A stretch of 46,466 bases of DNA from Bdellovibrionota bacterium (lineage in GTDB: Bacteria; Bdellovibrionota; UBA1018; CAUJDS01), in contig CAUJDS010000036.1 of NCBI GenBank assembly GCA_963169695.1, positions 1 through 46,466 of the forward strand, read 5' to 3'. The position numbers and the translations under genes are program-made. The stretch's first letter is position 1; each line of letters opens with the position of its first letter. Shown here piece by piece: positions 29,707 through 46,466 of this stretch. A model generated the notes under the pieces. It saw only the letters and a program-made list of their open reading frames with translations. It was not told where the DNA came from and ran no database searches.

Positions 29707-30084
29707 ATGAAAATCATTCGAGTGCAAACCTTAAGAAATCAAGGGGTTATTGCCGACAAGTGCAACGTGGCAGAACGCTTTTGGGAGCGCGCCGTCGGTC
29801 TCATTGGGCGGAAGGAATTTCGCTCAGGGGAAGGCATGTTTTTTCCACAATGTAACAACATACATATGTGGTTCATGCGCTTGCCGATTGATGTCGTGTT
29901 TTTGAAGGAAAGTCGTTCCGTGGACGGGAGGTCCCAGTGGTGGGTTACTTCCGTTCGCAAAGCGATCAAGCCATGGAGGATCCTTCCGGTGATGGACATT
30001 CGTGCCAATGACACGTTGGAGTTGCCGTCAGGAACCATAGAGAAATGGAGCATACAAGCGGGGGATGAAATGTGTTTAAGCTGA
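29707..30084 (+). CDS. DUF192 (UPF0127) family protein
   Basis: The 125-residue protein matches the DUF192 family: ERFWERAVGLIGRKEF, then the signature IHMWFMRLPIDVVFLKE and the C-terminal DTLELPSGTIEKWSIQAGDEM. The family is a small beta-rich fold with no settled function. No signal peptide is seen. GGAGGG lies just before the ATG. The end overlaps the start of the first FHA gene by 13 bases, so it belongs to that operon. Confidence 0.9.
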   Translation: MKIIRVQTLRNQGVIADKCNVAERFWERAVGLIGRKEFRSGEGMFFPQCNNIHMWFMRLPIDVVFLKESRSVDGRSQWWVTSVRKAIKPWRILPVMDIRANDTLELPSGTIEKWSIQAGDEMCLS

Positions 30085-31697
30085 CCATCGTCGGCGGCCC
30101 AAACACCGGAACCAACTTTGTTCTGAAAGAAGGCGAAAACGTTCTAGGAAGAGGCTCGTCCAATGAAGTCTACCTTCCCTCTTCACGCGTATCAAAAAAC
30201 CATTGTGTAGTGACTGTCAAGGGCCGCACGCTGGAGCTAAGAGACCTGGGTAGTGCAAATGGGACTTTTATCAATGGAGTAAAGGCTCGTCAGAAAGTGA
30301 TTCAGGCTGGCGATCGAATAAGTGTCGGTCCCTTCATTTTTGAAGTCACCCGAGTAAAGAAAAATGAAAAAGTTTCTCAATACCCAGTTCTCGCAGAACT
30401 TCAGAATGGCTCCCTCGCCGCCCGTAAAGACGTAGGTGGAACTCAAGCTGGTTATTCAAATGGTGGAATGCCAGCGGCAGCCCTTAGTTTCTGGGATCGT
30501 GTGAATCTCTATTTTGAAAAGTACGTCATGGCGTTTTTTTACGGCCTGAATATTAAATATGACTGGCGATGGCTTGGGGTAGGACTTTTCACAGGATTTC
30601 TCTTTTTGAATCTCTTTTTCTCAGTCTCTCCCTTATTAGAAGCCAATCAGCAGTCCGTGCTAATCGAGTCCGGAAGAAGAGCCCAGTACATGGCTCGTCA
30701 AGTAGCAGAATTGAACACAGCGAAGTTCGCCGCTGCATCACAGTCTGGATTGACCATGGCGGGAACGGGTGAGGAGTTCGGTGTTCAGGTTTCTGTGATA
30801 GCTGATCTTCAAAATCGCATTCTTGCTCCAGCTGATAAGCTAAACCAGTACCTAAAGAGCGGTACCGAAGCTCGTTTAGCCGTCGCTGCCGCCAACCTCT
30901 TCAAGGAAGGAAGAGAAACAGGGGTCGTTAAGGACTTTCAAGACGAGCTGGTGGTAGCCATCGAGCCGATTCGAATCCTAGATAGAAAATTAGGAAGGAA
31001 TACGACGGTTGCTATGGTCGTGGTTTCGATCGATGCAACCTTCGCAACACCACGGATGGGCTCAATAGGAGTTATTTATTCCAAAACGCTCATTGTCGCG
31101 GTCATTTTTGGCGCGCTTCTCGCCTTAATTTTCTATCGAATGACGCTCAAGCCCTTAGAGATTCTCAATGAAGATATGGAGAAGGTGCTTCAGGGTGAAA
31201 TGCATCAAGTAACTCACGACTTTAAAAATGAAAGTCTTGATTCACTATGGACCATCATCAACTCCGCTCTGCAACGCCTCCCCAAAACGGGATCAGGAGG
31301 TTCGTCCGCAGAAATGGATCGCGAATCGATCGAGCAAACGAGCTTTGAAGTGGCAGTCCAGGCATTTAGGAGCATGGGAGACGGCGCACGCTATGGACTC
31401 CTTGCCTGTGATCAGGCGAGAAACGTTGTTTTTATGAATACAGTTTTTGAAGACATTAGTGGCATTCGATCGGCGGACGCTTTTGGCAAGGAGCTAACAT
31501 CCGTAGCGAGAGACCAGGCATTTTCAGTATTAGTAAGCAATCTCTTTGATGCAGCTCAGATGTCCTTGGGCCAGGCATTGGGTGAAGACTTTGATTTCGG
31601 CGGAATCGTTTACGAAATGAGGACTGTTGCGCTAGGTAAGGATCGCGCAATGGGATTTATTTTATCCGCAACAAGAAAGGAGAGCGCGGAAGCGTAA
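30072..31697 (+). CDS. FHA-domain membrane protein with HAMP and PAS-like regions
   Basis: The 541-residue protein starts at GTG inside the end of the DUF192 gene. The N-terminal FHA domain (about residues 20-95) keeps the phosphothreonine-binding residues: GR in LGRGSSNEV, S-x-N-H in SRVSKNH, and NG in SANGTFING. Two membrane segments (about 163-187 and 335-357) bracket a roughly 145-residue extracytoplasmic sensor-like domain. A HAMP-like helical linker follows, then a PAS-like domain (about 440-530). The layout resembles a chemoreceptor or sensor kinase without the kinase. It probably links an envelope signal to phosphothreonine reading beside the Tad pilus genes. Confidence 0.85.
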   Translation: MFKLTIVGGPNTGTNFVLKEGENVLGRGSSNEVYLPSSRVSKNHCVVTVKGRTLELRDLGSANGTFINGVKARQKVIQAGDRISVGPFIFEVTRVKKNEKVSQYPVLAELQNGSLAARKDVGGTQAGYSNGGMPAAALSFWDRVNLYFEKYVMAFFYGLNIKYDWRWLGVGLFTGFLFLNLFFSVSPLLEANQQSVLIESGRRAQYMARQVAELNTAKFAAASQSGLTMAGTGEEFGVQVSVIADLQNRILAPADKLNQYLKSGTEARLAVAAANLFKEGRETGVVKDFQDELVVAIEPIRILDRKLGRNTTVAMVVVSIDATFATPRMGSIGVIYSKTLIVAVIFGALLALIFYRMTLKPLEILNEDMEKVLQGEMHQVTHDFKNESLDSLWTIINSALQRLPKTGSGGSSAEMDRESIEQTSFEVAVQAFRSMGDGARYGLLACDQARNVVFMNTVFEDISGIRSADAFGKELTSVARDQAFSVLVSNLFDAAQMSLGQALGEDFDFGGIVYEMRTVALGKDRAMGFILSATRKESAEA

Positions 31698-31709
31698 AAC
31701 CATTTTTGT

Positions 31710-32720
31710 ATGAGTAGTGTTATGAAGTTTAAAGATCATCATGTTCCCATGCAAAACGGTGAACTTGCGCGTATCAAGGTCGTTCAGGGACCCGATCTGG
31801 GTTCTACATGGTGCATCTTCTCGCCGGTGGCAACATTGGGTCGAGGAGAAGACAATGATATCGTCGTTTCGGATTTAAAGACCTCTCGCAATCATATTCG
31901 AATTTATATTGATGGCGCACGGTGGGGCGTTGCTGACTTAGGAAGTGCTAACGGAACGCTCCTCAACGGCCAACCTCTCAAAAACGCTGTTCTGTCGACT
32001 GGAAATACCTTGGCTCTTGGAGAAAGCATCCTTGAATTTTCGGCCAGGGAAGCAGGGACGCTGGTTTTCACAGCACCGCCAAAGAAGCCATCCCAACTTT
32101 TGGATGAAAGGCGCGCAATCGAGCAGCATCATAAAAAATTGCGGGCATTGACCACCGTTGGCGGTCTTGACATTCCGAAGTTAACCGGAAGTTTTGCCGT
32201 TTCTGGTGTTTCTACTGGAGGAAGCAAACGACCATTGATTTATGGAATCCTTGCCATTGGACTCGCTGCTGTTTTGTTTCTGGATGATTCCGAATCACCT
32301 AATAAATCCAACGCCAAGAAAGATGACAAAGGCAGAGCATTGGCGTCTTTCTTGCCCGATGAAAGCAAAGGCGAGGTTCATCGCACGGCCGAGCAGTTCT
32401 TCTCGGTAGGATTTCGAGAGTATCGAGAGAAGAACTACCTTCGGGCCAAACTTCAATTCGAAACCACTCTACAGGTTGATCCGGGGCACTTCTTGGCTAG
32501 GCTGTATTTGGATAAGTGCAATCAAGATATCGACGATGAAGTGAAGTTTCATTTGGATCGTGCCAAAAAGAGTATATCCGCAGGGAAAGTGGCGTCGGCC
32601 AAAGGCCATTACGAATCAGTGACTCGACTTCTGTACCGTGATCAGTCTAACCCGGCTTACGTGGAAGCAAACGAAGAACTCAAGGGTATTAAAAAAACGC
32701 TCGAGCGAGGAAGTAGCTGA
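31710..32720 (+). CDS. FHA-domain protein with TPR-like C-terminus
   Basis: The 336-residue product has a FHA domain at about residues 38-110 with GRGEDND, TSRNH and SANGTLLNG all intact. A single membrane segment lies near residues 173-192, and the C-terminal part (about 225-330) has helical TPR-like repeats (YREKNYLRAKLQFETTLQVDPGHFLARLYLDKC). The FHA is expected in the cytoplasm and the TPR part outside the membrane. The stop codon shares one base with the next ATG. TadD of classical Tad systems is a TPR protein, so this could substitute for it. Confidence 0.85.
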   Translation: MSSVMKFKDHHVPMQNGELARIKVVQGPDLGSTWCIFSPVATLGRGEDNDIVVSDLKTSRNHIRIYIDGARWGVADLGSANGTLLNGQPLKNAVLSTGNTLALGESILEFSAREAGTLVFTAPPKKPSQLLDERRAIEQHHKKLRALTTVGGLDIPKLTGSFAVSGVSTGGSKRPLIYGILAIGLAAVLFLDDSESPNKSNAKKDDKGRALASFLPDESKGEVHRTAEQFFSVGFREYREKNYLRAKLQFETTLQVDPGHFLARLYLDKCNQDIDDEVKFHLDRAKKSISAGKVASAKGHYESVTRLLYRDQSNPAYVEANEELKGIKKTLERGSS

Positions 32721-34972
32721 TGGATACAGCAAAACTGATCCTCTTTCGAGACGGAAAAAAAATACGAGAGGAAAGTCTCTCTGGAGAGCTACAAATTGGT
32801 CGAGGACCTTCTTGTGATATTCGTTTAGACGATCAGGGAATTTCTCGTCATCATGCAACAGTTGCTCTCAAGGAAGGGCAGCTCGAAGTCGTGAAGCGAT
32901 CGGAGTTTGGGCCTTTGTGGGTCAATGGGCGAGAAGTATCGCAGGCTATTCTTAAGCAAGGCGATGTTTTTCGGATGGGGTCTTTTGACTTTGAGTTTCA
33001 GCTCGAAAGGAAATCAGAAGATGTGCGCCCTTCTCTTCCCACTGCGGAAGTTCTGACAAGCATACCTACCGTAGACCTTGGTCAAGTTGAAGAGGTACAG
33101 CTAGTGAGTGAAGAAAATTCACCCGCCGTCACCACTCCTACTCCGTCTTCAGATTTTGGTATTCAAGACGGTCCCGAAGTTGATTTACACTTGGATTTGG
33201 ATGCTTCTCCCCAGACACCCATAGCTGAGCCAATGGTGATTGAAAGCCCAAAAAGCTTTGAATTGGAGCCCTCGCAGTCTCAGCTTTCGGCTCAAGTATC
33301 GGACGAAGCTCAGACGCGGCTGGTATCTGCATCTAAAATGGAAGCCAGACTGTTATTCAAAACGGGAACCGCGAGCGTTGAGACCTTTGCTGTACGCGGT
33401 GAAGAGACGTCGATTGGTCGAAGTAAGAATTGCGATATAGTCATACTTGATAAGAAGTCATCCCGGCGAAATACCGTCATTGTACGAAAGGGGATTCAAT
33501 TTTTTGTTCGCGATTTGGACTCTTCAAATGGCACCTACCTCAATGGTGTTCGTATTACGGAGGCCGAGTTAACCGGAGATGATGAACTGAGGATCGGGGA
33601 TACCTCCTTTGATTTCGAGATCGTAAGTGCCGAGTTTGAAAAGAAGAAAGAAGATCTGTTTGTTCCAAAAGAGGAGCCGGAGATAGAGCTTCCTCCGCCT
33701 GCCATGGAAAGTGCTGCCGCTCAGAATGCAATTCCAGCGGGGGAATTTTCTGCCAATAAGGCGCCATGGAATGCCCCGCTAGGTGGTACGGGCGCAATTC
33801 CGGGGCTGGGGCTACCTTCAAATGTCCAACTCCCATCACCGGGGAAGACTTCCCTTTTAGCCAAATACCGTCAGCTCCCTCCAAGAAAGCGAATCCTGTA
33901 TTTGGCGGTAGCTGTGGCTGCTATTTGGTTCCTATTGGACGAGGAGCCTGGTGGTGGCGATAAAAAAGTCGCTGAAAAGTCGGTAGATCGTAAGGTATCC
34001 TCTGAAGGGCAAGATGGAGGAGCTGGGGGGCCTACCTACGAGTCATTGACTAAAGAGCAAAGAGGATTTGTGGAAAGCCAGTATCAACTGGCCAGTAATT
34101 TTTATTACAACAAGGAGTATGACAAATCCTTGTTTGAAATACGTAAGATCTTTCAACTCGTACCAGAATACAAAAATTCTCGTGAAATTGAGCGCTATGC
34201 CGAAGAAGGAAAACGCCGCATGGAAGCGCAAGAGCGAGAGCGAAGAAGAAAAGAAGAAGAAGCAAGGATTCGAGCCGAAGTCGCAGACCTCATAGAAAAA
34301 GCGCGTAACGCTATGATCAAGAAGAAATACAAGGATGCGTCCGGACTCTTCCCCCAAATTTTATCACTAGATCCCGAAAACAAGGATGTGGCCCGTTGGC
34401 AAAATGAGATGGACACTGAGGTAGAACAACAAAGACTCCAAGAACAACAGGTCAAAGTTCAAGATGAAATTAATAAATATGGATGGGATCTCTACAAGAA
34501 GGGCGTGGAAGAATATACTGCCGGAAGGTTTCCTCAATCTGTTGCTACGTTGACGAAAATCGAAGACATCGGATCAACCGATGCAAAATTGAAATCTCAG
34601 AGTAAGGAAAAGATCACTGAGGCAGAGTTGAAACTGAAAGAACTACTAGAACCTATGGCTGCAGAGGCGAAAGCCGCCGAAGATGCTTCCGACTACTCAA
34701 AAGCTTATAAATTATACGAGTCCATGAAAGAAGCAGATAGCCGCGACTCTCGGGGAATAGAAGGAATGAATCGCATTCGCGGAATCCTTCACGAACGTGG
34801 AAAAGTTCAATACATTGAAGCGGTTCTAGCAGAGAGTTATAGCGATTTTGAAAATGCTCGGCAGCTATTTGAATCCTGTAAGAATGCGGCGCCTAAAGAG
34901 GATATTTACTTTCAACGTTGTTCGGACAAGCTTGAGCGATACAAGGCTTTTGACATCAAGGGATCGGATTGA
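32720..34972 (+). CDS. Double-FHA membrane protein with TPR/coiled-coil C-terminus
   Basis: The 750-residue protein has two FHA domains. The first (about residues 15-95) has GRGPSCD and ISRHH, with a less typical end WVNG. The second (about 205-300) has GRSKNCD but reads SSRRN at 247-251, so the conserved His is Asn, then SSNGTYLNG. A Pro/Glu-rich linker, a membrane segment (about 390-406) and a long helical C-terminal region (about 440-745) follow. That region is highly charged, coiled-coil and TPR-like. It probably forms a scaffold bridging phospho-signals and the pilus base. ATG overlaps the previous stop. Confidence 0.83.
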   Translation: MDTAKLILFRDGKKIREESLSGELQIGRGPSCDIRLDDQGISRHHATVALKEGQLEVVKRSEFGPLWVNGREVSQAILKQGDVFRMGSFDFEFQLERKSEDVRPSLPTAEVLTSIPTVDLGQVEEVQLVSEENSPAVTTPTPSSDFGIQDGPEVDLHLDLDASPQTPIAEPMVIESPKSFELEPSQSQLSAQVSDEAQTRLVSASKMEARLLFKTGTASVETFAVRGEETSIGRSKNCDIVILDKKSSRRNTVIVRKGIQFFVRDLDSSNGTYLNGVRITEAELTGDDELRIGDTSFDFEIVSAEFEKKKEDLFVPKEEPEIELPPPAMESAAAQNAIPAGEFSANKAPWNAPLGGTGAIPGLGLPSNVQLPSPGKTSLLAKYRQLPPRKRILYLAVAVAAIWFLLDEEPGGGDKKVAEKSVDRKVSSEGQDGGAGGPTYESLTKEQRGFVESQYQLASNFYYNKEYDKSLFEIRKIFQLVPEYKNSREIERYAEEGKRRMEAQERERRRKEEEARIRAEVADLIEKARNAMIKKKYKDASGLFPQILSLDPENKDVARWQNEMDTEVEQQRLQEQQVKVQDEINKYGWDLYKKGVEEYTAGRFPQSVATLTKIEDIGSTDAKLKSQSKEKITEAELKLKELLEPMAAEAKAAEDASDYSKAYKLYESMKEADSRDSRGIEGMNRIRGILHERGKVQYIEAVLAESYSDFENARQLFESCKNAAPKEDIYFQRCSDKLERYKAFDIKGSD

Positions 34973-34976
34973 GCTT

Positions 34977-35723
34977 ATGACAAAAGCGGGGCAAATGAAG
35001 GCATTTGAGTTATCGAGCCAAGGTAGTCGGAAAGAGAAGGAAGAGGTCTTTCAGTTTCGAGCAGATAGAGGAATTTTTGCGATGGCCGATGGCTTTGGTG
35101 GAGGAGGAGCGGGGGTTAATGCAGCTCGACTCGCTTGCGATAAGAGCCTTCAGTTTTTGGACAGAGAAGCCGGCGATCGCGACGCCACGTTGCCATTTGT
35201 ATTGAAGCCCTATTACTCGCTTGCAGGAAACATCGTATTCAATTCTGTATTGCACGCTAATCGAGAGGTCCTTAGGGCAAACCGTGAGGTCTCTGGAAAT
35301 GCAAAAGGAGGCGCATCCGTCCTGACAGGATTTCTGGATGGCGGATTCTTGGCTTTGGCCAATGTTGGGTCTTGCTCTGCTTCTCTCATTAGGGAAGACC
35401 GTGTGAGCTCGATCGTCCGCGCGAGGAGCTATCGGTCCTTGATTGATCCGACTGGTACCCTGGCCAGTGCTCACCAGCTGCAGGTGCCTTTGATGGCCCT
35501 TGGAATGGTGGAAGGCTTGGAGCCCGAGATAGCGGAGGTGCGTACGGCACCTGGAGATGTGCTTTGGTTACAGTCCGAGGGGGTGGAGCCAAAATACCTC
35601 AATGATTTCATGGGTTTTTATCTCAATAACAGGGATGCCGCCGCAACAGTGGCGCAGTTGAAAGAAAGGCTAGGCGAAGGACTTTCAGGAATTAACTATA
35701 TGATATCATTAGTTTTTATATAG
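34977..35723 (+). CDS. PP2C-like protein, probably catalytically inactive
   Basis: The 248-residue protein has the PP2C (PPM) fold outline: GIFAMADGFGGGGAGVNAAR (residues 32-51, like VADGMGG), GGASVLTGFL (like GTT motif), LANVGSCSASLI (usual ANVGDSR) and VLWLQSEGV (usual LLCSDG). The metal-binding Asp residues are missing in the GDS, SDG and final DN motifs (Ser, Glu and Ile-Asn here), so activity as a Mn/Mg phosphatase is doubtful. The start at ATG 34977 lies four bases after the FHA gene; ATG 34995 is possible. It may act as a pseudophosphatase reader in the FHA group. No Ser/Thr kinase gene is seen in the window. Confidence 0.7.
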   Translation: MTKAGQMKAFELSSQGSRKEKEEVFQFRADRGIFAMADGFGGGGAGVNAARLACDKSLQFLDREAGDRDATLPFVLKPYYSLAGNIVFNSVLHANREVLRANREVSGNAKGGASVLTGFLDGGFLALANVGSCSASLIREDRVSSIVRARSYRSLIDPTGTLASAHQLQVPLMALGMVEGLEPEIAEVRTAPGDVLWLQSEGVEPKYLNDFMGFYLNNRDAAATVAQLKERLGEGLSGINYMISLVFI

Positions 35724-36076: not shown

Positions 36077-36295
36077 ATGAAGACCCTAATTCGAGGAATC
36101 CAAGCACTTATTCACTCGGAATCTGGCCAGGCTACTGCGGAGTATATCCTTCTTCTCGCGACGGTATCGCTCATCAGCACTACCATCATAAAAGAAATCT
36201 TGCGCAGCATTGACCTCGGAATATTGGGGCTTGGTGCATCGCTAGAGCGTTACCTTAAGACAGGAAGGGCTCCCGCAAGTGTTTGGTCAAACTAA
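36077..36295 (+). CDS. flp2: Flp-type pilin (second)
   Basis: The 72-residue protein has the leader then ESGQATAEYILLLATVSLIS, the same G-Q-x-T-x-E-Y-I pattern and hydrophobic helix as the first pilin, but a different C-terminus (GLGASLERYLKTGRAP). Expected to be cut by TadV and be a second or minor pilin. It overlaps the tadV start by 17 bases. The two pilins are not near-identical, so they are not a recent duplication. Confidence 0.87.
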   Translation: MKTLIRGIQALIHSESGQATAEYILLLATVSLISTTIIKEILRSIDLGILGLGASLERYLKTGRAPASVWSN

Positions 36296-36818
36296 TTTCG
36301 AACTCATCTTGCTCATGCTAGTTTCACTCATTGCTCTTGCAACAGATCTTGCACGTGGTCGAATCTACAATTGGCTGACTTTGCCATTGATGGTCCTCGC
36401 ATTTATTTGGGCGTATTCGAATGGCGGCGTGTCCGGACTGCTCTCTGCATTTGCCGGTTGGTCCTTAGCGGTCGCGGTTTTGTTTCCCTTATTCTTGATT
36501 AAGTGGATAGGAGGAGGAGACGTCAAGCTGCTCATGGGGTACGGGGCTTTGCTTGGGGTACGGCCCTTTGCGGAGCTGCTCCTTCTAACGTTGCTGGTTG
36601 CATCCGTATTTGCTCTTCTCATTCTAATAACCAAAGGGAGGCTTCGCTCTTTCCTCCAAGAGCTTAGCTGGAAAGCCATGGCCCTTTTCATATTGAAAGA
36701 CCAAAAAATTGATCTCACCCTTACTCAGCAAACTCGCATGCCCATGGCCCTCCCCATTGGGATTGCAGTCATTTGGACCGTGCTGAGTCGCCCCCTTTTG
36801 GGAGGCTTAGGTCTATGA
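36279..36818 (+). CDS. tadV: Tad prepilin peptidase TadV (CpaA)
   Basis: The 179-residue, polytopic protein is an A24 aspartic prepilin peptidase. The two catalytic Asp are visible: D23 in ATDLARGRIYNW and D81 in IGGGDVKLL. It cleaves the leader from the pilins and TadE/F proteins nearby. The start is GTG inside the end of the second pilin gene. Its stop overlaps the ATG of the next gene by four bases. Length is normal for the short CpaA form without the methyltransferase domain. Confidence 0.92.
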   Translation: MFGQTNFELILLMLVSLIALATDLARGRIYNWLTLPLMVLAFIWAYSNGGVSGLLSAFAGWSLAVAVLFPLFLIKWIGGGDVKLLMGYGALLGVRPFAELLLLTLLVASVFALLILITKGRLRSFLQELSWKAMALFILKDQKIDLTLTQQTRMPMALPIGIAVIWTVLSRPLLGGLGL

Positions 36819-37623: not shown

Positions 37624-38137
37624 GAAAAGTAAATCAAACTTCGAAAAACAGGGCGGGCAAAGCGTCGTTGAATTTCTGTTGCTTCTCCCTATGCTACTTG
37701 CCATTCCCTTTTTGCTGATTAAAGTGAATTCTGCTGTTCAAACTTCAATCGTCAATCAACAGTATTCTCGATCTCAGACGCTTTTCCTAGCTTACAATAG
37801 TCCAATCTATCCGGAATTGCGATTCAGAGTAGGATCTGGAAAGCTCGAAAGTTCTGGAATGTCCCAGATTACGCTAGGAGTATCAGACAACTTAGCTACG
37901 GGTCAGGACGACTACACGCCGCGAGCCACCGAGCAAAACGTTCAGCGCACTAAATCCGAAGATGTTGGAAATAATGACAACCGATTTGAGGGAGCACGTC
38001 TCAGGGGAAATGTTCGAGTGCGAGGCACAGTTAGCCTTTGCACCCAGACCAATTCAGTGGCCACGGGGACTGGCTTTACTCCTATCAATCAAATCCGGCA
38101 GGGAGCAAATCTTCAGATCTGCAGAGGGCCTTTTTAA
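37607..38137 (+). CDS. TadE/TadF-like minor pilin
   Basis: The 176-residue product has EKQGGQSVVEFLLLLPMLLAIPF, another G-Q-S-x-x-E-F leader and helix. The remainder is polar, with RTKSEDVGNNDNRFEGARLRGNVRVRGT and two cysteines near the end (SLCTQ, LQICRG). It starts at TTG 37607, seven bases after AGGAG in the end of the TadE gene, overlapping it by 17 bases. It may be the TadF or TadG counterpart. It shares one base with cpaB. Confidence 0.8.
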   Translation: MITGVEKSKSNFEKQGGQSVVEFLLLLPMLLAIPFLLIKVNSAVQTSIVNQQYSRSQTLFLAYNSPIYPELRFRVGSGKLESSGMSQITLGVSDNLATGQDDYTPRATEQNVQRTKSEDVGNNDNRFEGARLRGNVRVRGTVSLCTQTNSVATGTGFTPINQIRQGANLQICRGPF

Positions 38138-38985
38138 TGAATAATCGCGCAGTCACCTTATCCGTTGCCATGGCGATCTTAGCAATTTTCTTCATGCAGA
38201 GTTATGTTTCAAGTATTGAGGAAGAAGCAAAAAAGAAATTTGGAACCGAGGTTCTGGCAGTCGTTGCGAGCAAGGATATCAAAGAAATGGCTACCATCGA
38301 TGAGACTTATTTAGAGCTCAAGGCCATTCCAAAAAGATTTTTAGAACCAGCCGTCATTTCATTCTCCGGGGTTAAAGAAGAGGACGCTAAGAAGGACATG
38401 CGAGACTTGGTCGGGACGGTGGCAATTGTACCGATCAAAAAAGGTGAGCAGATTTCTTATAATAAATTAACTGAGCCGAGTATGCGTACGGGCCTATCAC
38501 CGCAAGTAACACCGGGACGTCGAGCAGTTTCAATTCCTGTTACCGAAATTACTGGAGTTTCAAAGCTCATCAAGCCTGGAGATCGTGTCGATCTTATTGC
38601 TGTTATTCAGGTGGGTACTAGCGCAGACTCCACATTGGCAAAGACCATCCTCCAGGATGTGCCGATTCTTTCAGTGGGTCGGTACATAACGAATAATGTG
38701 GCTCGCCTTGTTGAGATGGACGAATTGCGAGGAAAAGAATCCGTAAAATCGCTCGCTAGTTTTGATGGGTTCTCCTCAGTTACGCTAGAGGTCGATCCTA
38801 CTCAGGCACAGAAAATCGCCGTCCTGGTAGGCAATCCTAGGAATCAGCTTATTTTGTCTCTTCGCAATAATGACGACAATGAGCAAACGGGAGTGGAAGG
38901 CCTAACGATGGGCGATGTCCTAGGTAGAGATGCGGCAAAAGTTGTACGTGGTCCCGCTAGCACCAATGGAGGTCAGCGGCGATAG
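38137..38985 (+). CDS. cpaB: Flp pilus assembly protein CpaB
   Basis: The 282-residue protein has an N-terminal membrane segment, a SAF-type domain (VLAVVASKDIKEMATIDETYLELKAIPKRF) and the CpaB/RcpC region around GRRAVSIPVTEITGVSKLIKPGDRVDLIAV. CpaB is a periplasmic component that works with the secretin. ATG 38137 overlaps the preceding stop. It ends with a short polar tail and is followed at once by the secretin gene. Length is normal. Confidence 0.94.
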   Translation: MNNRAVTLSVAMAILAIFFMQSYVSSIEEEAKKKFGTEVLAVVASKDIKEMATIDETYLELKAIPKRFLEPAVISFSGVKEEDAKKDMRDLVGTVAIVPIKKGEQISYNKLTEPSMRTGLSPQVTPGRRAVSIPVTEITGVSKLIKPGDRVDLIAVIQVGTSADSTLAKTILQDVPILSVGRYITNNVARLVEMDELRGKESVKSLASFDGFSSVTLEVDPTQAQKIAVLVGNPRNQLILSLRNNDDNEQTGVEGLTMGDVLGRDAAKVVRGPASTNGGQRR

Positions 38986-40581
38986 ATGAAGAAGCAAAAT
39001 GCTTTTTATTTCATCATGATTCTGACCGTAGCCAAGTTTGCAATTTGGCCAATCGAGGCTTGGGCACAAGAGGAAGAGTCTTATAAAAAGTCTCGACTTA
39101 CGAGCGATCGGTCAGAAGGAAAGGCCGATCGAAGGGACCTAGTCCTAGCCGTTGGAAAAGACAAGGTGGTTGACCTCGACTTTGATCCAAACGCAGGAGC
39201 TGCAGGTATCAGCATTGGAAATCCAAAAGTCTTAGCAACTACCTTAGTTCGAGTGGGTGACCAAAAGCAAATCGTCTTCAAGCCATTGGCAGGCGGCAGA
39301 ACTACGATCACCATTCGAGATGCCGATGGGAATATTAAGCTCATTTTCGACGCTGTAGTTGCCAATACGTTTATTGAATCTCAACTTCAAGACCTCAAGG
39401 ACCTCTTAAAGAACATCGAAGGAATACGATACGAAATTCGGGGTGACCGTATCTATCTGGATGGCGAGATCCTTGTGCCACAGGATTATGGTAGGATACT
39501 GGCGGTAACCGAAGGAAAAAATTCACCCTTTGTTGAAGTAGTCATCAACCTGGCAACCCTGTCTCCCATCGCACTTCAGTTGCTTTCTAAGCGTATTACT
39601 AAAGATGTGTCAGCATTTGCTAGCGGAGTAACTTCTCGAGTTGTGAATGGACAAATTTGGTTAGAAGGAACTGTCGACAATATTGATACTGCAAGACGCG
39701 CGGAAAAAGTCGCGGAGCTCTATTTGCCCGAGCTTAAACCTGGGAGTCAATTAGAGAAAGATCCCACCGTTCAGCGATTGCCACCTCGAAGTCTTGTGCA
39801 GAATTTTATAGTAATCAATCCAGCACCTTCTACAAAGAAGGACAAACTCGTCAGAGTGACGAACCACTTTGTGGAGCTTTCTAAGAATTACAGCAAGCTG
39901 TTTGGTTTTAAGTGGCAACCTGGATTTACTTCTGACCCCCAGATCCAAATCGGATCGACCACCGATGGGGGTACAGGCGCTTCCGGGGCTAGCTCCTTCA
40001 CTGCGACCATTTCTAGTCTTATTCCAAAGCTAGAGAGTGCTCAAAAGGCAGGGTATGCTCGCGTGTTAAAGACTGGCACTTTGATCGTTCGAAGCGGAAA
40101 AGTAGCTGTACTTAATGATCAGACTGAAACTCCATTTCCTGTTACGGGGGCTAATGGCCAAGTAACAACCCAGACTGCCGCGACAGGGCTCAATCTCAGC
40201 GTTACCCCTCTCATTCTTGGCCAAACGGAAGATATTCAGATGGATCTCGAGATGAACCAGGTCAATCCAGCTGGAAGGGCTGCGGGTAGGTTGATCACTG
40301 CGAACCACCAAGTGAAGACAACTCTCTACGTAAAGTCTAACGAAAGCGCAGCTGTGGCAGCTGTATTTGCCACGGACGTAAAAACAGATTTTAACGAAGA
40401 CGATCCAAATCAAGGAACGTTTCAAGGCCCGACAACTTCTCCTCTCTTCACGTTATTAAGCTCAAAGAATTTCACTAAGCGCAGAAATCACTTTGTCATT
40501 TTTGTGACGCCGCAAATTATTGAAGACGCCTCTGAGGGAACAGGCGATTTGAAGAAGAATTTCAGAATCAAGATCAATTGA
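38986..40581 (+). CDS. cpaC: Tad secretin CpaC/RcpA
   Basis: The 531-residue protein has a signal peptide (IMILTVAKFAIWPIEAWA), an N-terminal pilus-assembly domain (GKDKVVDLDFDPNAGAAGISIGNPKV), a BON-like middle part and a C-terminal secretin domain (residues about 330-515) that ends with KNFTKRRNHFVIFVTPQIIED. Secretins form the outer-membrane gate for the pilus. It follows cpaB immediately. The usual order cpaB-cpaC is kept. The C-terminal tail beyond the secretin domain is short. Confidence 0.94.
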   Translation: MKKQNAFYFIMILTVAKFAIWPIEAWAQEEESYKKSRLTSDRSEGKADRRDLVLAVGKDKVVDLDFDPNAGAAGISIGNPKVLATTLVRVGDQKQIVFKPLAGGRTTITIRDADGNIKLIFDAVVANTFIESQLQDLKDLLKNIEGIRYEIRGDRIYLDGEILVPQDYGRILAVTEGKNSPFVEVVINLATLSPIALQLLSKRITKDVSAFASGVTSRVVNGQIWLEGTVDNIDTARRAEKVAELYLPELKPGSQLEKDPTVQRLPPRSLVQNFIVINPAPSTKKDKLVRVTNHFVELSKNYSKLFGFKWQPGFTSDPQIQIGSTTDGGTGASGASSFTATISSLIPKLESAQKAGYARVLKTGTLIVRSGKVAVLNDQTETPFPVTGANGQVTTQTAATGLNLSVTPLILGQTEDIQMDLEMNQVNPAGRAAGRLITANHQVKTTLYVKSNESAAVAAVFATDVKTDFNEDDPNQGTFQGPTTSPLFTLLSSKNFTKRRNHFVIFVTPQIIEDASEGTGDLKKNFRIKIN

Positions 40582-40599: not shown

Positions 40600-42765
40600 T
40601 TGGCTGGACATATTATTGCAATCACTGGGGGCAAAGGTGGCGTTGGCAAAAGCGTATTCGCTGCTAACTTTGCGCTCGCGTATTTAAAGAACTTCAAGAA
40701 TCGACCACTGATTATTGACATGGACTTGAATAGTCTAGGTGATCAAAACCTCATTCTAGGCCAAAATCCACCACGCAGTATCGTCGATATTTCTAAGATG
40801 CCGCAAGGGCCTTTAGACATCAAAACCCTGAGCCCATTCATGGTCAATTCGCCTCAGGGCTATCACTTTATAGGTGCTCCACGTGACTCGATTTCAGCCA
40901 AAGACATGGATATTGAGGGTCTAGGAAGATTCCTTAAGGGTATCACCCAGCTATTTGATCTCGTCGTTATCGATGTCGGAAGCTCGATGGACCCCTTTGC
41001 CTTGAAAGCTTTGGAGTATGCAACAGCCATTTTTGTTGTGACGACAGCAGATATGATCGTCATGGCGCAAACGCGTAGAATCCTTTCAAAGATTCAAGAA
41101 TTGCTTTTCCCACCTGAAATGGTTCAGGTTATTTTGAATCGATACAGTGGAAGCAGTTTGCTCAATCCCCAAATGATTCAGAAAAACCTGAATCGAGCAA
41201 TTTTTGCTGCGCTTCCGGATGATTTACCTACTTCAGAAGGCGCGTTGGCTAAGAGCATCCCTATGGTGCTAGCGGCGCCCAATGCTCCCGTCGTGCGTGC
41301 TTACCATGATCTGGTACGGAAGATTGAGCAAAGTCAGCTATTTCCCCAGCTGGCGAAACTCAAGAAGCCCTCTGGCGTTGCCAACAAAGTGCTGGCGGAT
41401 ATCAAGCAGGCTGCGAATGCCTCTTCTGGTGGTGGGGGTAATGAAGGTTTTCGAAATATTCGTGTAAAGGACGGACCATCCGATCCTTGGACTTCGATGA
41501 AACTTCGAATCCACAAAGGCCTCGTTGAGCGAATGGACCTCAAAAAGACTAATACCGATACCGATGATCCAAAAAAACTCGCCGTGCTTAGAGAACGCAC
41601 TCAGAAGGTTATTTTAGAGGTGCTCGAATCAGAGGACACCTCCTCGCTTCTTTCCTCCCGTGAATTAAAGGCTCAGATAATCAAAGAAGTCCTGGATGAA
41701 GCACTTGGACTAGGGCCATTGGAAGATTTGCTTGCAGACGATAGTGTTACAGAAGTAATGGTGAATGCTCGCGATCAAATCTACATCGAGAAGGGCGGAA
41801 AGCCCCAGCTTTCTAAGGTTGTATTTTCTAGCGAGCTGCAGATGATGAATGTTGTCGAAAGAATTGTTACTCCGCTCGGAAGGCGAGTGGATGAAAAGGT
41901 GCCCTATGTGGATGCCCGGCTACCGGATGGGTCTCGTGTACATATTATCATTCCACCGCTTGCCCTGAGAGGTCCAACGATTACGATTCGAAAATTTCCT
42001 AAGAAGCGCATTACCGCGAAAGACCTTGTTCAGTATGGATCGATGACCACTGAGGTCGCTGATTTCTTGAGGTCTTGCGTAGAAGCCAAGCTCAACGTGA
42101 TTGTATCAGGAGGAACAGGATCTGGAAAAACAACGCTCCTCAATGTTCTCTCCAATTTCATTCCTGAAACGGATCGAATCATTACTATCGAGGATTCAGC
42201 CGAGTTGCAGCTCGTTCAACCTCATGTGGTTCGACTTGAATCGCGGCCAAAAAATATCGAAGGCGAGGGTGAAGTGACGATTCGCGATTTGGTAAAATCA
42301 AGTTTGCGTATGAGGCCCGATCGGATTGTAGTGGGAGAGTGCCGAGCTGGAGAAGCCTTGGATATGCTACAAGCGATGAATACTGGGCACGACGGCTCTT
42401 TGACGACGCTTCACGCAAATTCACCCAGAGAAGCTATTCAGCGTTTGGAGACTTTAGTGATGATGGCTGGATTAGGGCTTCCTTCCAAAGCCATTCGCGA
42501 GACGGTGGCATCCGCTGTCAATATCATCATTCAGCAGTCAAGACTGAGCGACGGCTCTCGTAAAGTAACTCATATTTCGGAAGTAACTGGTATGCAGGGA
42601 GAAGTGATCAGTCTTCAAGACATTTTTACCTTTAAGCAAGAAGGACTAGATAAATCTCGCAAAGTGATTGGGCGATTCGTGCCTACCGGATTTATTCCAA
42701 AATTTGTGGAAGAATTAGAGGCGAAGGGTATGCGGATATCGCGCGGAATTTTCTCGGTGAAGTAG
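40600..42765 (+). CDS. tadZA: Fused MinD-like (TadZ/CpaE) and TadA/CpaF motor ATPase
   Basis: A single 721-residue frame joins two normally separate proteins. Residues 1 to about 245 are a MinD/ParA-type ATPase with the deviant Walker [10 protein letters not shown] (10-18), [10 protein letters not shown] and [12 protein letters not shown]. After a variable Gly/Ser/charged linker (about 265-320), residues about 330-721 are the TadA/CpaF secretion ATPase with GGTGSGKTT (504-512), an Asp box around [21 protein letters not shown] (Walker B) and the His-box area [12 protein letters not shown]. The receiver-like domain often found N-terminal in TadZ is absent. The TTG start has GGGGTAGGGG upstream. 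I see no frameshift or internal stop. Confidence 0.93.
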
Positions 42766-42766
42766 G

Positions 42767-43633
42767 ATGGCATTAAAGTATTTAGGATTCCTAGTATTTG
42801 GCATAGCCATCTTTATCCTTTCCTACCACTACAATAAGCGATTTCTCGAGTGGCTACGATTTCAATCGCTAGGAACTCGAGATTACATCCATGAACGTTT
42901 ATCGGTCATGTTTATTGATTTTCCGCCAAACCAAATTTTATTAGGTCAATTTCTGGTAAGCTTTGGCTTGGGTATTGTCGTTTTTGCGCTTTTTGTTCCA
43001 TTTTTTTTTCCAGCTACCCTTTTCGGTCTGACCATGACCATCGTGGGTTGGAAGCTCCCAAAGCCGATTGTGGATTGGATGTATCGTCGTCGAGTCTCGA
43101 AAGTGATTCTTCAAATGGTAGACGGATTGGCCTTGATGTCTAATGGTCTCAAGTCGGGATTGTCGATTGTTCAGTCCATGGAGTTGGTAACCCGCGAGAT
43201 GCCGGACCCACTTCGCCAAGAGTTTCAGCTTATTTTGAACGAAAATCGACTCGGGGTGTCTCTCGAGGATGCCTTCACCAATTTTTCCAAGCGTGTAGAA
43301 TCTGACGATGTCGAAATGTTTGTTACGTCCGTCAATATTTTGAAGGAGACGGGTGGAAATCTGGCTGAAACCTTCGATACCATTGTCAGCACGATACGAG
43401 AGCGGATAAAGGTGGAAAATCGGATAGATGCGCTCACTGCCCAAGGGTACTATCAGGGAGTCTTCGTCATGATGGTACCTCCAGCTTTGTTTGCAACCTT
43501 CTATCAGAGTGATCCTGAGTTTATGAAACCCTTGGTAACGACTCCTATAGGATGGTTTATTCTGGCAATTATTCTTGGGTTGGAGATTGCGGGTTTTTTT
43601 GTCATCATGAGGATTGTAAAAATCAATGTATAG
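42767..43633 (+). CDS. tadB: Tad pilus assembly membrane protein TadB
   Basis: The 288-residue protein is the TadB-type T2SSF platform protein. It has membrane segments near the N-terminus (YLGFLVFGIAIFILSY), two in the middle (ILLGQFLVSFGLGIVVFALF, then FFPATLFGLTMTIVGW) and one at the C-terminus, and the F-domain LALMSNGLKSGLSIVQSMELV and LKETGGNLAETFDTI. It starts one base after the fused ATPase. Its partner TadC lies at 28716-29639 rather than next to it. Confidence 0.94.
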   Translation: MALKYLGFLVFGIAIFILSYHYNKRFLEWLRFQSLGTRDYIHERLSVMFIDFPPNQILLGQFLVSFGLGIVVFALFVPFFFPATLFGLTMTIVGWKLPKPIVDWMYRRRVSKVILQMVDGLALMSNGLKSGLSIVQSMELVTREMPDPLRQEFQLILNENRLGVSLEDAFTNFSKRVESDDVEMFVTSVNILKETGGNLAETFDTIVSTIRERIKVENRIDALTAQGYYQGVFVMMVPPALFATFYQSDPEFMKPLVTTPIGWFILAIILGLEIAGFFVIMRIVKINV

Positions 43634-43669
43634 TGGAAAATGGTTAGTGTCGACCGGATGGGGGAGACT

Positions 43670-45343
43670 ATGAAACGAATCGTCATTTTATTGGCTGTAA
43701 TGTGTGTATTGCCTTCTTTTTCTCAAGCGAATGTGAGCTTGAGAAACGGCAATTTTTTCATCGGGTATACCGACCTTATTTACCCAGGCGGATTTGAGCC
43801 CAAAATTGAGCGGGTCTATAATTCCAAAACCCCCTATCAAGGAATTTTTGGCTGGGGTTGGGGCACGGAGTATGAAGCCTACATTAGCATAGCTTTAGAT
43901 GGCAGCCTCCTCGTCAATGAATACGGCGGTGGTGCGCAGAATCGATTTTACCCTAAGAATTTTAAAGCGGAAGACCTTGACGCAGCAATTAAACGATTAG
44001 CCGAAGTTGCAAAAAAATCTGGTGCGCTGGGCAGTGAAGCACAATTGGCAAGTTACACTCAGAAACTTAAAAACGACGCGATCTTTAGAAATGCGGAATG
44101 GGATAAGTTTCGTTCGCAAGGGAAAATCAAACCTGTCTCAGTAAAGACTGGAACTCAATTCTTCTCCAGTCGCTTTAGTTATCAGATGATTGCTAAAGTC
44201 AATCAAGGCTATCAGCGAGGCTTTGAAAACGGCAAAGTCGAGCTGTTTGACTCGAACGGAAGATTGATTCGTGTGTCTGATAAGAACAATAATTCACTAT
44301 CCTTTAAATATGGGAAGGATGGAAATCTTATCAGTGCCATTGATAATTTCAATCGCAAAATTCTCTTCTCGTTCAATTCAAAGGGATTTGTTGAGAAAAT
44401 CGAGGGAGAGAACGGAAAGAAAGCTTTCTACAAGTATAACAACAATGGTGAACTTACTGACACCAAAGACGTTGATGGCAATACTTATCAATATGCGTAT
44501 GACGATCGCCATAATATGACCAAGATTGGTTATACAGATAAAACCGCGATGGAAATCGCTTATCATCCACGAAGCGAGAATGAAAATGTTAAATCTGTTC
44601 GTGATCGAGATGGCACATTGACTGAGTATACTTATGACAATAAGAAGTCAGATGGCAGCCATTTGCTCGTAAGCCTCAAAATGAAAAACAAAGAAGGCAA
44701 AGAATTCTCAACGAGCTCTTATGAATACGTTATGAAGACCAAGCCAACCGGTGAGCAATGGACCTACCGCATGGTCGCAACGGTGGATGGGCTTTCGACG
44801 GATACTACTTATAATGAGGAATTGGGTCTGCCGGTCGAAATTAAAAAAGGCGGAGATGTTAGTCGCTTTAAGTACGATGCCAAGGGTCACGTTATTGAAA
44901 AAGACACTCCTCTAGAATTAGTCAAACTTTCTTATGACCCAAAAGTCGGCAAAGTGTCTCGCGTCGTTAGGGTGAGTAAGTTGGGAGATCAAAAGGGTCA
45001 GCAAACTTGGTCAGAATTTCAGTATGATAAAGGGAATGGTAACCTCCTGTTTGCAAAGAATTCTAGCAAGCAGGGCGTGAAGCTACTCTATGACCGCAAC
45101 GGTAGAATCAGCAGCATGGTTGATCAGACCAAAAGAGTGATTGCCTTTAAGTACAATGAAAACTCAAAGCCAGTAGAAATTCGGGATCCTAAGCTTGGTT
45201 CTATTCGCGTCAAATATAAGAATAGTGGTGAAGTTGCGGGTGTTGAAAGTACCGCCGGAAGGCAAATTGCTCTTCAGGTCACTTCAGCATTCCAGAATCT
45301 GCTAGATATTGTACGGCCGGCAGGTGTTACGCTTAGTTTTTAA
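43670..45343 (+). CDS. Exported YD-repeat (RHS-type) protein
   Basis: The 557-residue product has a signal peptide (IVILLAVMCVLPSFSQA) and then a DUF6531-like RHS N-terminal pattern: SLRNGNFFIGYTDLIYPGG, ERVYNSKTPYQGIFGWGWG. The rest contains YD-type repeats, such as NGELTDTKDVDGNTYQYAYD and FKYGKDGNLISAIDNF. It ends without the RHS hyperconserved core or a C-terminal toxin, so it is short for an RHS protein. It lies directly after tadB and ahead of the small exported protein, matching what I recall of Bd0109 in the Bdellovibrio hit locus. ATG 43670 follows GGGGAG. Confidence 0.85.
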   Translation: MKRIVILLAVMCVLPSFSQANVSLRNGNFFIGYTDLIYPGGFEPKIERVYNSKTPYQGIFGWGWGTEYEAYISIALDGSLLVNEYGGGAQNRFYPKNFKAEDLDAAIKRLAEVAKKSGALGSEAQLASYTQKLKNDAIFRNAEWDKFRSQGKIKPVSVKTGTQFFSSRFSYQMIAKVNQGYQRGFENGKVELFDSNGRLIRVSDKNNNSLSFKYGKDGNLISAIDNFNRKILFSFNSKGFVEKIEGENGKKAFYKYNNNGELTDTKDVDGNTYQYAYDDRHNMTKIGYTDKTAMEIAYHPRSENENVKSVRDRDGTLTEYTYDNKKSDGSHLLVSLKMKNKEGKEFSTSSYEYVMKTKPTGEQWTYRMVATVDGLSTDTTYNEELGLPVEIKKGGDVSRFKYDAKGHVIEKDTPLELVKLSYDPKVGKVSRVVRVSKLGDQKGQQTWSEFQYDKGNGNLLFAKNSSKQGVKLLYDRNGRISSMVDQTKRVIAFKYNENSKPVEIRDPKLGSIRVKYKNSGEVAGVESTAGRQIALQVTSAFQNLLDIVRPAGVTLSF

Positions 45344-45364
45344 TTGAAGTAAGGAGTTCGTAAA

Positions 45365-45604
45365 ATGATACAGTCAAATTCGATTCGTCTTGAGAGAAAA
45401 GTGCGGAGCCTGCTGTTCGCGGGACTTTTGATTCTAGGGATCGGAACGGTTTTATCTGTTCAGGCAGTCGAAAAAGATCCAGACTGTTCAAGCGTAACGG
45501 ATCATAATCAGTCTACTGGTGAAGCTCAAGTAACAGTAGGGCCAGGCGGCAAGAGCAATGCTGAGAAGGCCGGCGTTGGAAAAAGCAAATCGGATAAGAA
45601 ATAG
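45365..45604 (+). CDS. Small exported protein, possible Bd0108 (hit) counterpart
   Basis: The 79-residue product has a signal-like N-terminus (RSLLFAGLLILGIGTVLSVQA) and a polar, Gly/Ser/Lys-rich mature part with one cysteine (about residue 41) and no known domain. AAGGAG lies nine bases before the ATG. Its position, just after the YD-repeat gene at the end of a Tad cluster, matches what I recall of the Bdellovibrio gene whose mutation allows prey-independent growth, but sequence homology could not be checked. Length there is about 100 residues. Confidence 0.65.
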   Translation: MIQSNSIRLERKVRSLLFAGLLILGIGTVLSVQAVEKDPDCSSVTDHNQSTGEAQVTVGPGGKSNAEKAGVGKSKSDKK

Positions 45605-45626: not shown

Positions 45627-46466
45627 TTATGGGTTAGGGGTCAGGGGCTCGAACTGCACCAGCTCTACATAGTTGCCTTCAAGTAACGCGTGATGTTTAC
45701 GCTTGGATTTCAAGTCATTGAGGTTCTTACTGTTTTCCTGATGGCTTTTTGGCCAGGGATAGCCCGTGGGGCCCTTCTCCTGAATAAGTAAGAATGCCCC
45801 TGATTGTTCGTTAATTTTGGTACTGGTTTCTAGGTGGTGGACCTCTCCAAATTCGATCAACCTTGGAGCCAATATTCCAGACGCAAAGATGGTAGCTCCC
45901 CGTCGTTCTAGGATTGCTTCGCGTGCGTATTGGAGTTCAGTCAGACGTTCATGATCACTGGGACAATCTTGCATTCCGCCTTCAAAGTAGGTTCGATAGA
46001 AGACCTTGCCATAGTACTGGTGCTGACAGGCGACTACTAGCATTGCCGTCAACCAAATCGTCCTTGCTGGAGGCTGACTTTGATTTCTCTGTGAAGTGAG
46101 AAACAGCCCAATAAGGCAGGCCGCGACGGGTATCTCATAATGCAAATCCCATCGGCCTGCCACAAAGCGGATCAAAAAATAGCTGAGACCAGCTACCCCC
46201 ATCCCTAGGTTGATGGGGTATTTGGTTCTCTTTGCCCAGATTAAAAGCGGAATGAAGGGTAGCAAGAGGTAGAGGTACACTTTCTGAAGTCCGCTAGAAG
46301 TGAGTCGCTGCAGCAGTGTTGCAAAGAAATCTGATTTCCAAGGAGCCAGAAATTGACCGGAGTAGCTTTGGTAGTCCGTGAGGATCTGAGTCCTGTACCA
46401 AAAGATAGCCACAAAACCTGCTATAGAAATTCCGGCGAGAGGCAATGCAAGATCCTTGCGCTTTCT
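45627..46466 (-). CDS. Membrane protein, 3' part (runs off the window)
   Basis: An open frame on the minus strand enters from the window edge and ends at 45627, giving at least 280 residues; the visible TTG at 46445 need not be the start. It has several hydrophobic segments (AGISIAGFVAIFWYR, VYLYLLLPFIPLLIWA, INLGMGVAGLSYFLIRFVAG, YEIPVAACLIGLFLT, TIWLTAMLVVACQHQYYG) and a soluble C-terminal part with GATIFASGILAPRLIEFGEVHHLE. The layout suggests a polytopic glycosyltransferase-like or DUF2079-type protein, but no family is certain. It is convergent with the small exported gene. Confidence 0.65.
   Translation of the reverse strand, partial: RKRKDLALPLAGISIAGFVAIFWYRTQILTDYQSYSGQFLAPWKSDFFATLLQRLTSSGLQKVYLYLLLPFIPLLIWAKRTKYPINLGMGVAGLSYFLIRFVAGRWDLHYEIPVAACLIGLFLTSQRNQSQPPARTIWLTAMLVVACQHQYYGKVFYRTYFEGGMQDCPSDHERLTELQYAREAILERRGATIFASGILAPRLIEFGEVHHLETSTKINEQSGAFLLIQEKGPTGYPWPKSHQENSKNLNDLKSKRKHHALLEGNYVELVQFEPLTPNP

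Follow-up and report, generated by a model that had tools for sequence, protein, structure and literature searches.

A counterpart of the Bdellovibrio host-interaction locus behind the Tad pilus genes of another class of Bdellovibrionota

Among genetic switches between prey-dependent and prey-independent growth, the host-interaction (hit) locus is the best known; it encodes a small protein without known relatives beyond Bdellovibrio. In strain HD100 this protein, Bd0108, is disordered and a weak binding partner of Bd0109. Cells that have lost it show far fewer visible type IVa pili and are altered in pilus extrusion and growth mode; bd0108 mutants are prey-independent, and deletion of bd0109 failed (PMC3818213, PMC4267844). 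Is there a hit locus outside Bdellovibrio, and if so, to which extent is the small protein recognisable in it? The question is raised by a contig of 46,466 nucleotides (CAUJDS010000036.1, analysed as a whole and called the window here) from the draft genome of a Bdellovibrionota bacterium (2.79 Mb in 82 contigs, 95.6% complete), which belongs to the same phylum as HD100, but to a different class.

The right end of the window is occupied by a Tad (Flp) pilus cluster, including pilin-like ORFs and a TadE-like protein; the window genes given here with coordinates between 36279 and 45604 are on the plus strand. Domain searches identified a Peptidase_A24 prepilin peptidase (TadV-like, 36279..36818) inside the cluster and, together with a comparison to HD100, RcpC/CpaB (38131..38985, 34% identity), the Tad secretin RcpA/CpaC (38986..40581, 31%), a ParA/CpaE-TadA fusion ATPase of 721 aa (40600..42765, 47% identity to the 739-aa HD100 fusion) and a T2SSF-family Tad platform protein (42767..43633, 44% identity to Bd0110). 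The same fusion recurs in numerous genomes elsewhere in the phylum. Ahead of the Tad cluster (30072-35723), inspection by eye pointed to FHA-domain-like proteins and possibly a phosphatase of PP2C type, which suggests phospho-control of the pilus. The genome also encodes PilT-family ATPases, so that type IVa pili are plausible in this organism.

Behind the platform gene follows the gene of P0001 (ATG at 43670, stop at 45343; an alternative in-frame ATG at 43640 is possible), which is present once in the genome. ORF, domain and homology searches as well as structure prediction characterise P0001 (557 aa) as an exported YD/RHS-repeat protein, with RHS_repeat (E = 3e-23) and N-terminal DUF6531 (E = 1.7e-10) domains. 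The gene of P0002 (45365..45604), a small exported protein of 79 aa, starts 21 bp past the P0001 stop, with a strong ribosome-binding site (AAGGAG, read from the sequence at 45349..45357) about 8 nt ahead of its ATG. By inspection, both proteins carry Sec-type signal peptides (PSFSQA/NVSL in P0001, LSVQA/VEKD in P0002). Between the P0002 gene and the end of a convergent ORF at 45627 lie 23 bp.

For comparison, the HD100 locus was found by an exact match of the primer GGAGAAGGTGATTATATG, located just before bd0108 (Capeness et al. 2013, PMC3818213). The HD100 genes are arranged in the order CpaB, secretin, ParA-TadA fusion (739 aa), T2SSF, Bd0109 (550 aa) and Bd0108 (101 aa); the Tad genes of this locus are bd0110-bd0119. 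Order and orientation are the same in the window, whose Tad proteins share 31-47% identity with those of HD100. P0001 and Bd0109 align end to end, the non-repeat N-terminal part included (34% identity, 564 columns, E = 2e-96). This full-length alignment and the homologous Tad genes in HD100 order therefore establish P0001 as the Bd0109 orthologue in a syntenic locus. The first-pass annotation had seen a YD-repeat ORF and a 79-residue exported ORF after the Tad platform gene, and had read them as a hit counterpart with the order and orientation of Bd0109 and Bd0108 behind the Flp/Tad genes. Both ORFs are present at 43670 and 45365, HD100 has the same neighbourhood, and the Bd0109 similarity upholds this reading; sequence comparison confirms the window locus as a genuine counterpart of hit from another class of Bdellovibrionota. 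Differences concern the gap between the YD gene and the small gene (15 bp in HD100, 21 bp in the window), the small protein itself (79 aa with one Cys in P0002, 101 aa with two Cys in Bd0108) and the prepilin peptidase, present in the window cluster and reported missing from Bdellovibrio (PMC5430801).

AlphaFold2 gave a confident YD-repeat model for P0001 (pLDDT 87). The best Foldseek match was RhsA (7q97, E = 7e-25), the nearest solved structures being RHS cores; with TM-scores as low as about 0.2-0.55, the resemblance to them extends no further than the repeat fold. This fold is common to P0001 and the RHS/YD-repeat proteins RhsA, teneurin YD shell and TcB/TcC, but P0001 comprises only about 560 aa, has no toxin tip, is Sec-exported and is linked to Tad genes. 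A small ORF behind YD/RHS repeats could also point to a polymorphic toxin of the RHS type and its immunity gene. This is highly improbable for an exported, polar downstream protein and a YD gene that is a single-copy core gene beside Tad genes; we rejected it because the YD C-terminus is conserved phylum-wide (NLLDI-PAGV type) and shows no variable toxin tip.

The small protein is harder to place. AlphaFold2 predicted no structure for P0002 past the signal helix, the low pLDDT of the mature part (about 46-52) being consistent with disorder, though no proof of it; a charge-hydropathy plot, applied as a disorder test, did not separate the small proteins from folded control fragments. P0002 matches no Pfam or NCBIfam model. 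Its alignment to Bd0108, with the shared tail PGG..EKAG.G, reached E = 0.026 as a single comparison and is not significant (374 of 5000 shuffles scored as high). The same holds for P0002 against the Bdellovibrionaceae profile (147/500 shuffles as high); hhalign between group profiles yielded no useful probability. Of the expected similarity to the two HD100 proteins, that to Bd0109 was thus borne out and that to Bd0108 was not. The first-pass annotation had rightly remarked that P0002 has no domain to compare and that its match rests on order, size and export signals: the Bd0108 alignment is insignificant, and the slot is nearly always filled by a small exported protein (see below).

These null results could mean that true orthology is confined to the YD protein and Bd0109, while P0002 is a non-homologous replacement, the slot drawing unrelated small exported proteins without a Bd0108 role. 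It would also fit that a profile of the window's order fails to detect the Bdellovibrionaceae members. Against it, a profile built from Bacteriovoracia picks up the window's order (MWU p = 3e-6) and, with a weaker signal, the Bdellovibrionaceae (p = 4e-4). Within the window's order, none of 5000 shuffles scored as high against P0002 (DPDCSSVTDHNQ) as the small protein DSDCTSVTDATS of genome G006. The G006 gene (locus L032, G006:C27:50232-50396) is inverted in one genus, where it is convergent to the YD gene and still adjacent; P0002 is therefore not without a real relative in its order, and an inversion has not separated the two genes of the pair. The window's order and the Bacteriovoracia are enriched in a micro-motif, [TV]G[EQ]..C, that was selected post hoc.

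In HD100, a 10-bp repeat (CAAAGGCTCC) spaced 42 bp underlies the recurrent 42-bp bd0108 deletion. The P0002 gene lacks this repeat and with it the mutational hot spot, its longest repeat being 7 bp at a spacing of 109. We also considered direct repeats as a family-wide phase-variation device and rejected this, as the longest repeats measure 7.7 bp versus 7.5 bp in codon-shuffled genes.

How widespread is the pair? Of the 369 genomes searched in the phylum, 334 (223 of the 235 good ones) have a Bd0109 orthologue at a threshold of E<=1e-40, nearly always in single copy; the named carriers include Bacteriovorax and Halobacteriovorax. Genomes without an orthologue at this threshold still carry TadA-type ATPases. 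Among the nearest relatives of the window organism, all 40 genomes searched (26 genera) have the YD orthologue, and a small signal-peptide ORF stands behind nearly all of them. A T2SSF gene lies directly upstream of the YD gene in 138/140 loci. Directly downstream, 135 of 143 non-redundant orthologue loci (about 94%) have a small, polar ORF with a signal peptide, whereas such an ORF was found behind only 3 of 187 other long HD100 genes (from 400 kb of that genome), in 6/715 shuffles and in 3/143 cases on the opposite strand, one of which is the inverted gene of G006; the criteria were fixed after the first loci had been seen and were identical for the controls. So regular a filling of the slot also argues against replacement by unrelated proteins. 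Small partners are also present in several deep families. In the members of families f22 and f25 that were checked, the YD gene is retained but no small partner can be recognised, and the pairing is therefore not an absolute rule.

Outside the phylum, the YD gene was found only on a contig of Geobacter sp. OR-1 (L132 / G369:C43), one of 247 genomes of its phylum. It encodes a 40%-identical YD protein, a second YD relative and, upstream, a small Cys-rich exported ORF; the stretch read contains no Tad neighbours. Contamination or transfer is a possible explanation. A genome recorded as 'Lysobacteraceae bacterium WA131c' also carries a YD locus (L124); the record is probably misnamed.

The small partner diverges rapidly. 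Between YD proteins that are 88-94% identical, the mature parts of the small proteins often share only 27-47% identity, with a background of 24% in distant pairs. Because the small parts drop to near background beside such similar YD proteins, loss of similarity between P0002 and Bd0108 is to be expected, and this further lowers the standing of the replacement reading, which we regard as rather unlikely. Purifying selection acts on the small genes of the closest pairs (dN/dS 0.02-0.12), from which it follows that these ORFs are real genes; the higher dN/dS values of diverged pairs are overestimates caused by poor alignment. Fast divergence beside a conserved YD protein, a Cys in 135/136 mature parts and the ability of YD/RHS folds elsewhere to enclose partners would all suit small proteins that are cargo, tip or surface parts that pass out through the Tad machine and are diversified by prey or phage contact, the YD protein acting as chaperone or holder. 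Fast change is, however, common in disordered proteins too, and close small-gene pairs are under purifying selection. The altered pilus extrusion and growth mode after bd0108 loss in HD100 fit a regulator instead (PMC3818213), and we give the cargo interpretation a lower chance still than replacement.

Bd0108 has been described as unique to Bdellovibrio (PMC3818213) and as not conserved in strain SKB1291214 (PMC5941755), as would result from so fast a divergence of the small partner. From sequence, Bd0108 is best regarded as a member of a fast-diverging set of partners that extends through the phylum. Exported proteins of 57-133 aa beside Bd0109 homologues were noted in 20 Bdellovibrionales bins, with weak or no similarity to Bd0108 (PMC10469934), and the synteny of bd0109-bd0113 in BALOs was noted earlier (PMC5430801). 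Whereas the arrays of PMC10469934 cover the Bdellovibrionales only, with BLAST E values up to 10, our survey adds other classes and controls; as far as the literature shows, the phylum-wide extent of the pairing, with controls, is new beyond these two studies.

HD100 differs from the window in having a second small gene and transcript behind bd0108. This gene (96483-96683, minus strand; L049:4484-4684, BD_RS00505 by position) encodes 66 aa with a signal peptide, and AAGGAG precedes its ATG. It lies inside the published hit-locus small non-coding RNA of 261 bp (96455-96716, PMC3818213), and both RT-PCR primers for this RNA fall within the ORF. Counterparts occupy the same place in 20 further Bdellovibrionaceae loci looked at, and in the close genomes of L055 and L056 all 14 differences within the ORF are at third codon positions. 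Conservation of the ORF, primer overlap and third-position differences therefore make it very probable that the hit-locus RNA is an mRNA, which would encode a 66-aa exported protein. P0002 shows no significant direct similarity to this second HD100 protein, and no second small exported ORF was found downstream of P0002 in the window, where the convergent ORF leaves 23 bp. Further downstream of bd0109, some Bdellovibrio species (L059, L064, L065, L066) encode a third small exported protein, with a single Cys.

We thus return to what the pair may do. For the window organism, the simplest reading by analogy is that P0001 and P0002 bind each other and control the pilus as in HD100. Both would be expressed as the last part of the Tad operon, leave the cytoplasm through Sec and act in the periplasm. 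P0001 may work as a small YD/RHS beta-structure at the interface of pilus and cell wall, and P0002, disordered and with a weak affinity for P0001, may adjust how the pilus is extruded or retracted. We consider it likely that the window contains, in this sense, the hit locus of a bacterium of the Bdellovibrionota outside Bdellovibrio, with an orthologue (P0001) and a positional counterpart (P0002) forming an exported periplasmic pair that tunes the pilus. With somewhat greater confidence we propose that Bd0108 is no invention of Bdellovibrio: a core periplasmic YD protein and a fast-evolving small, exported, disordered partner would stand at the end of the Tad operon phylum-wide, the Bdellovibrionaceae adding a second partner gene, and the mRNA of this gene would be what has been described as the small RNA of the hit locus.

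The coding reading of this RNA offers a direct and cheap test of the proposed RNA-signalling model. Pairs of YD and small proteins across the phylum make the binding interface and the role in the pilus testable by comparison, and they argue that the Bdellovibrio switch was built on an older pilus-control pair.
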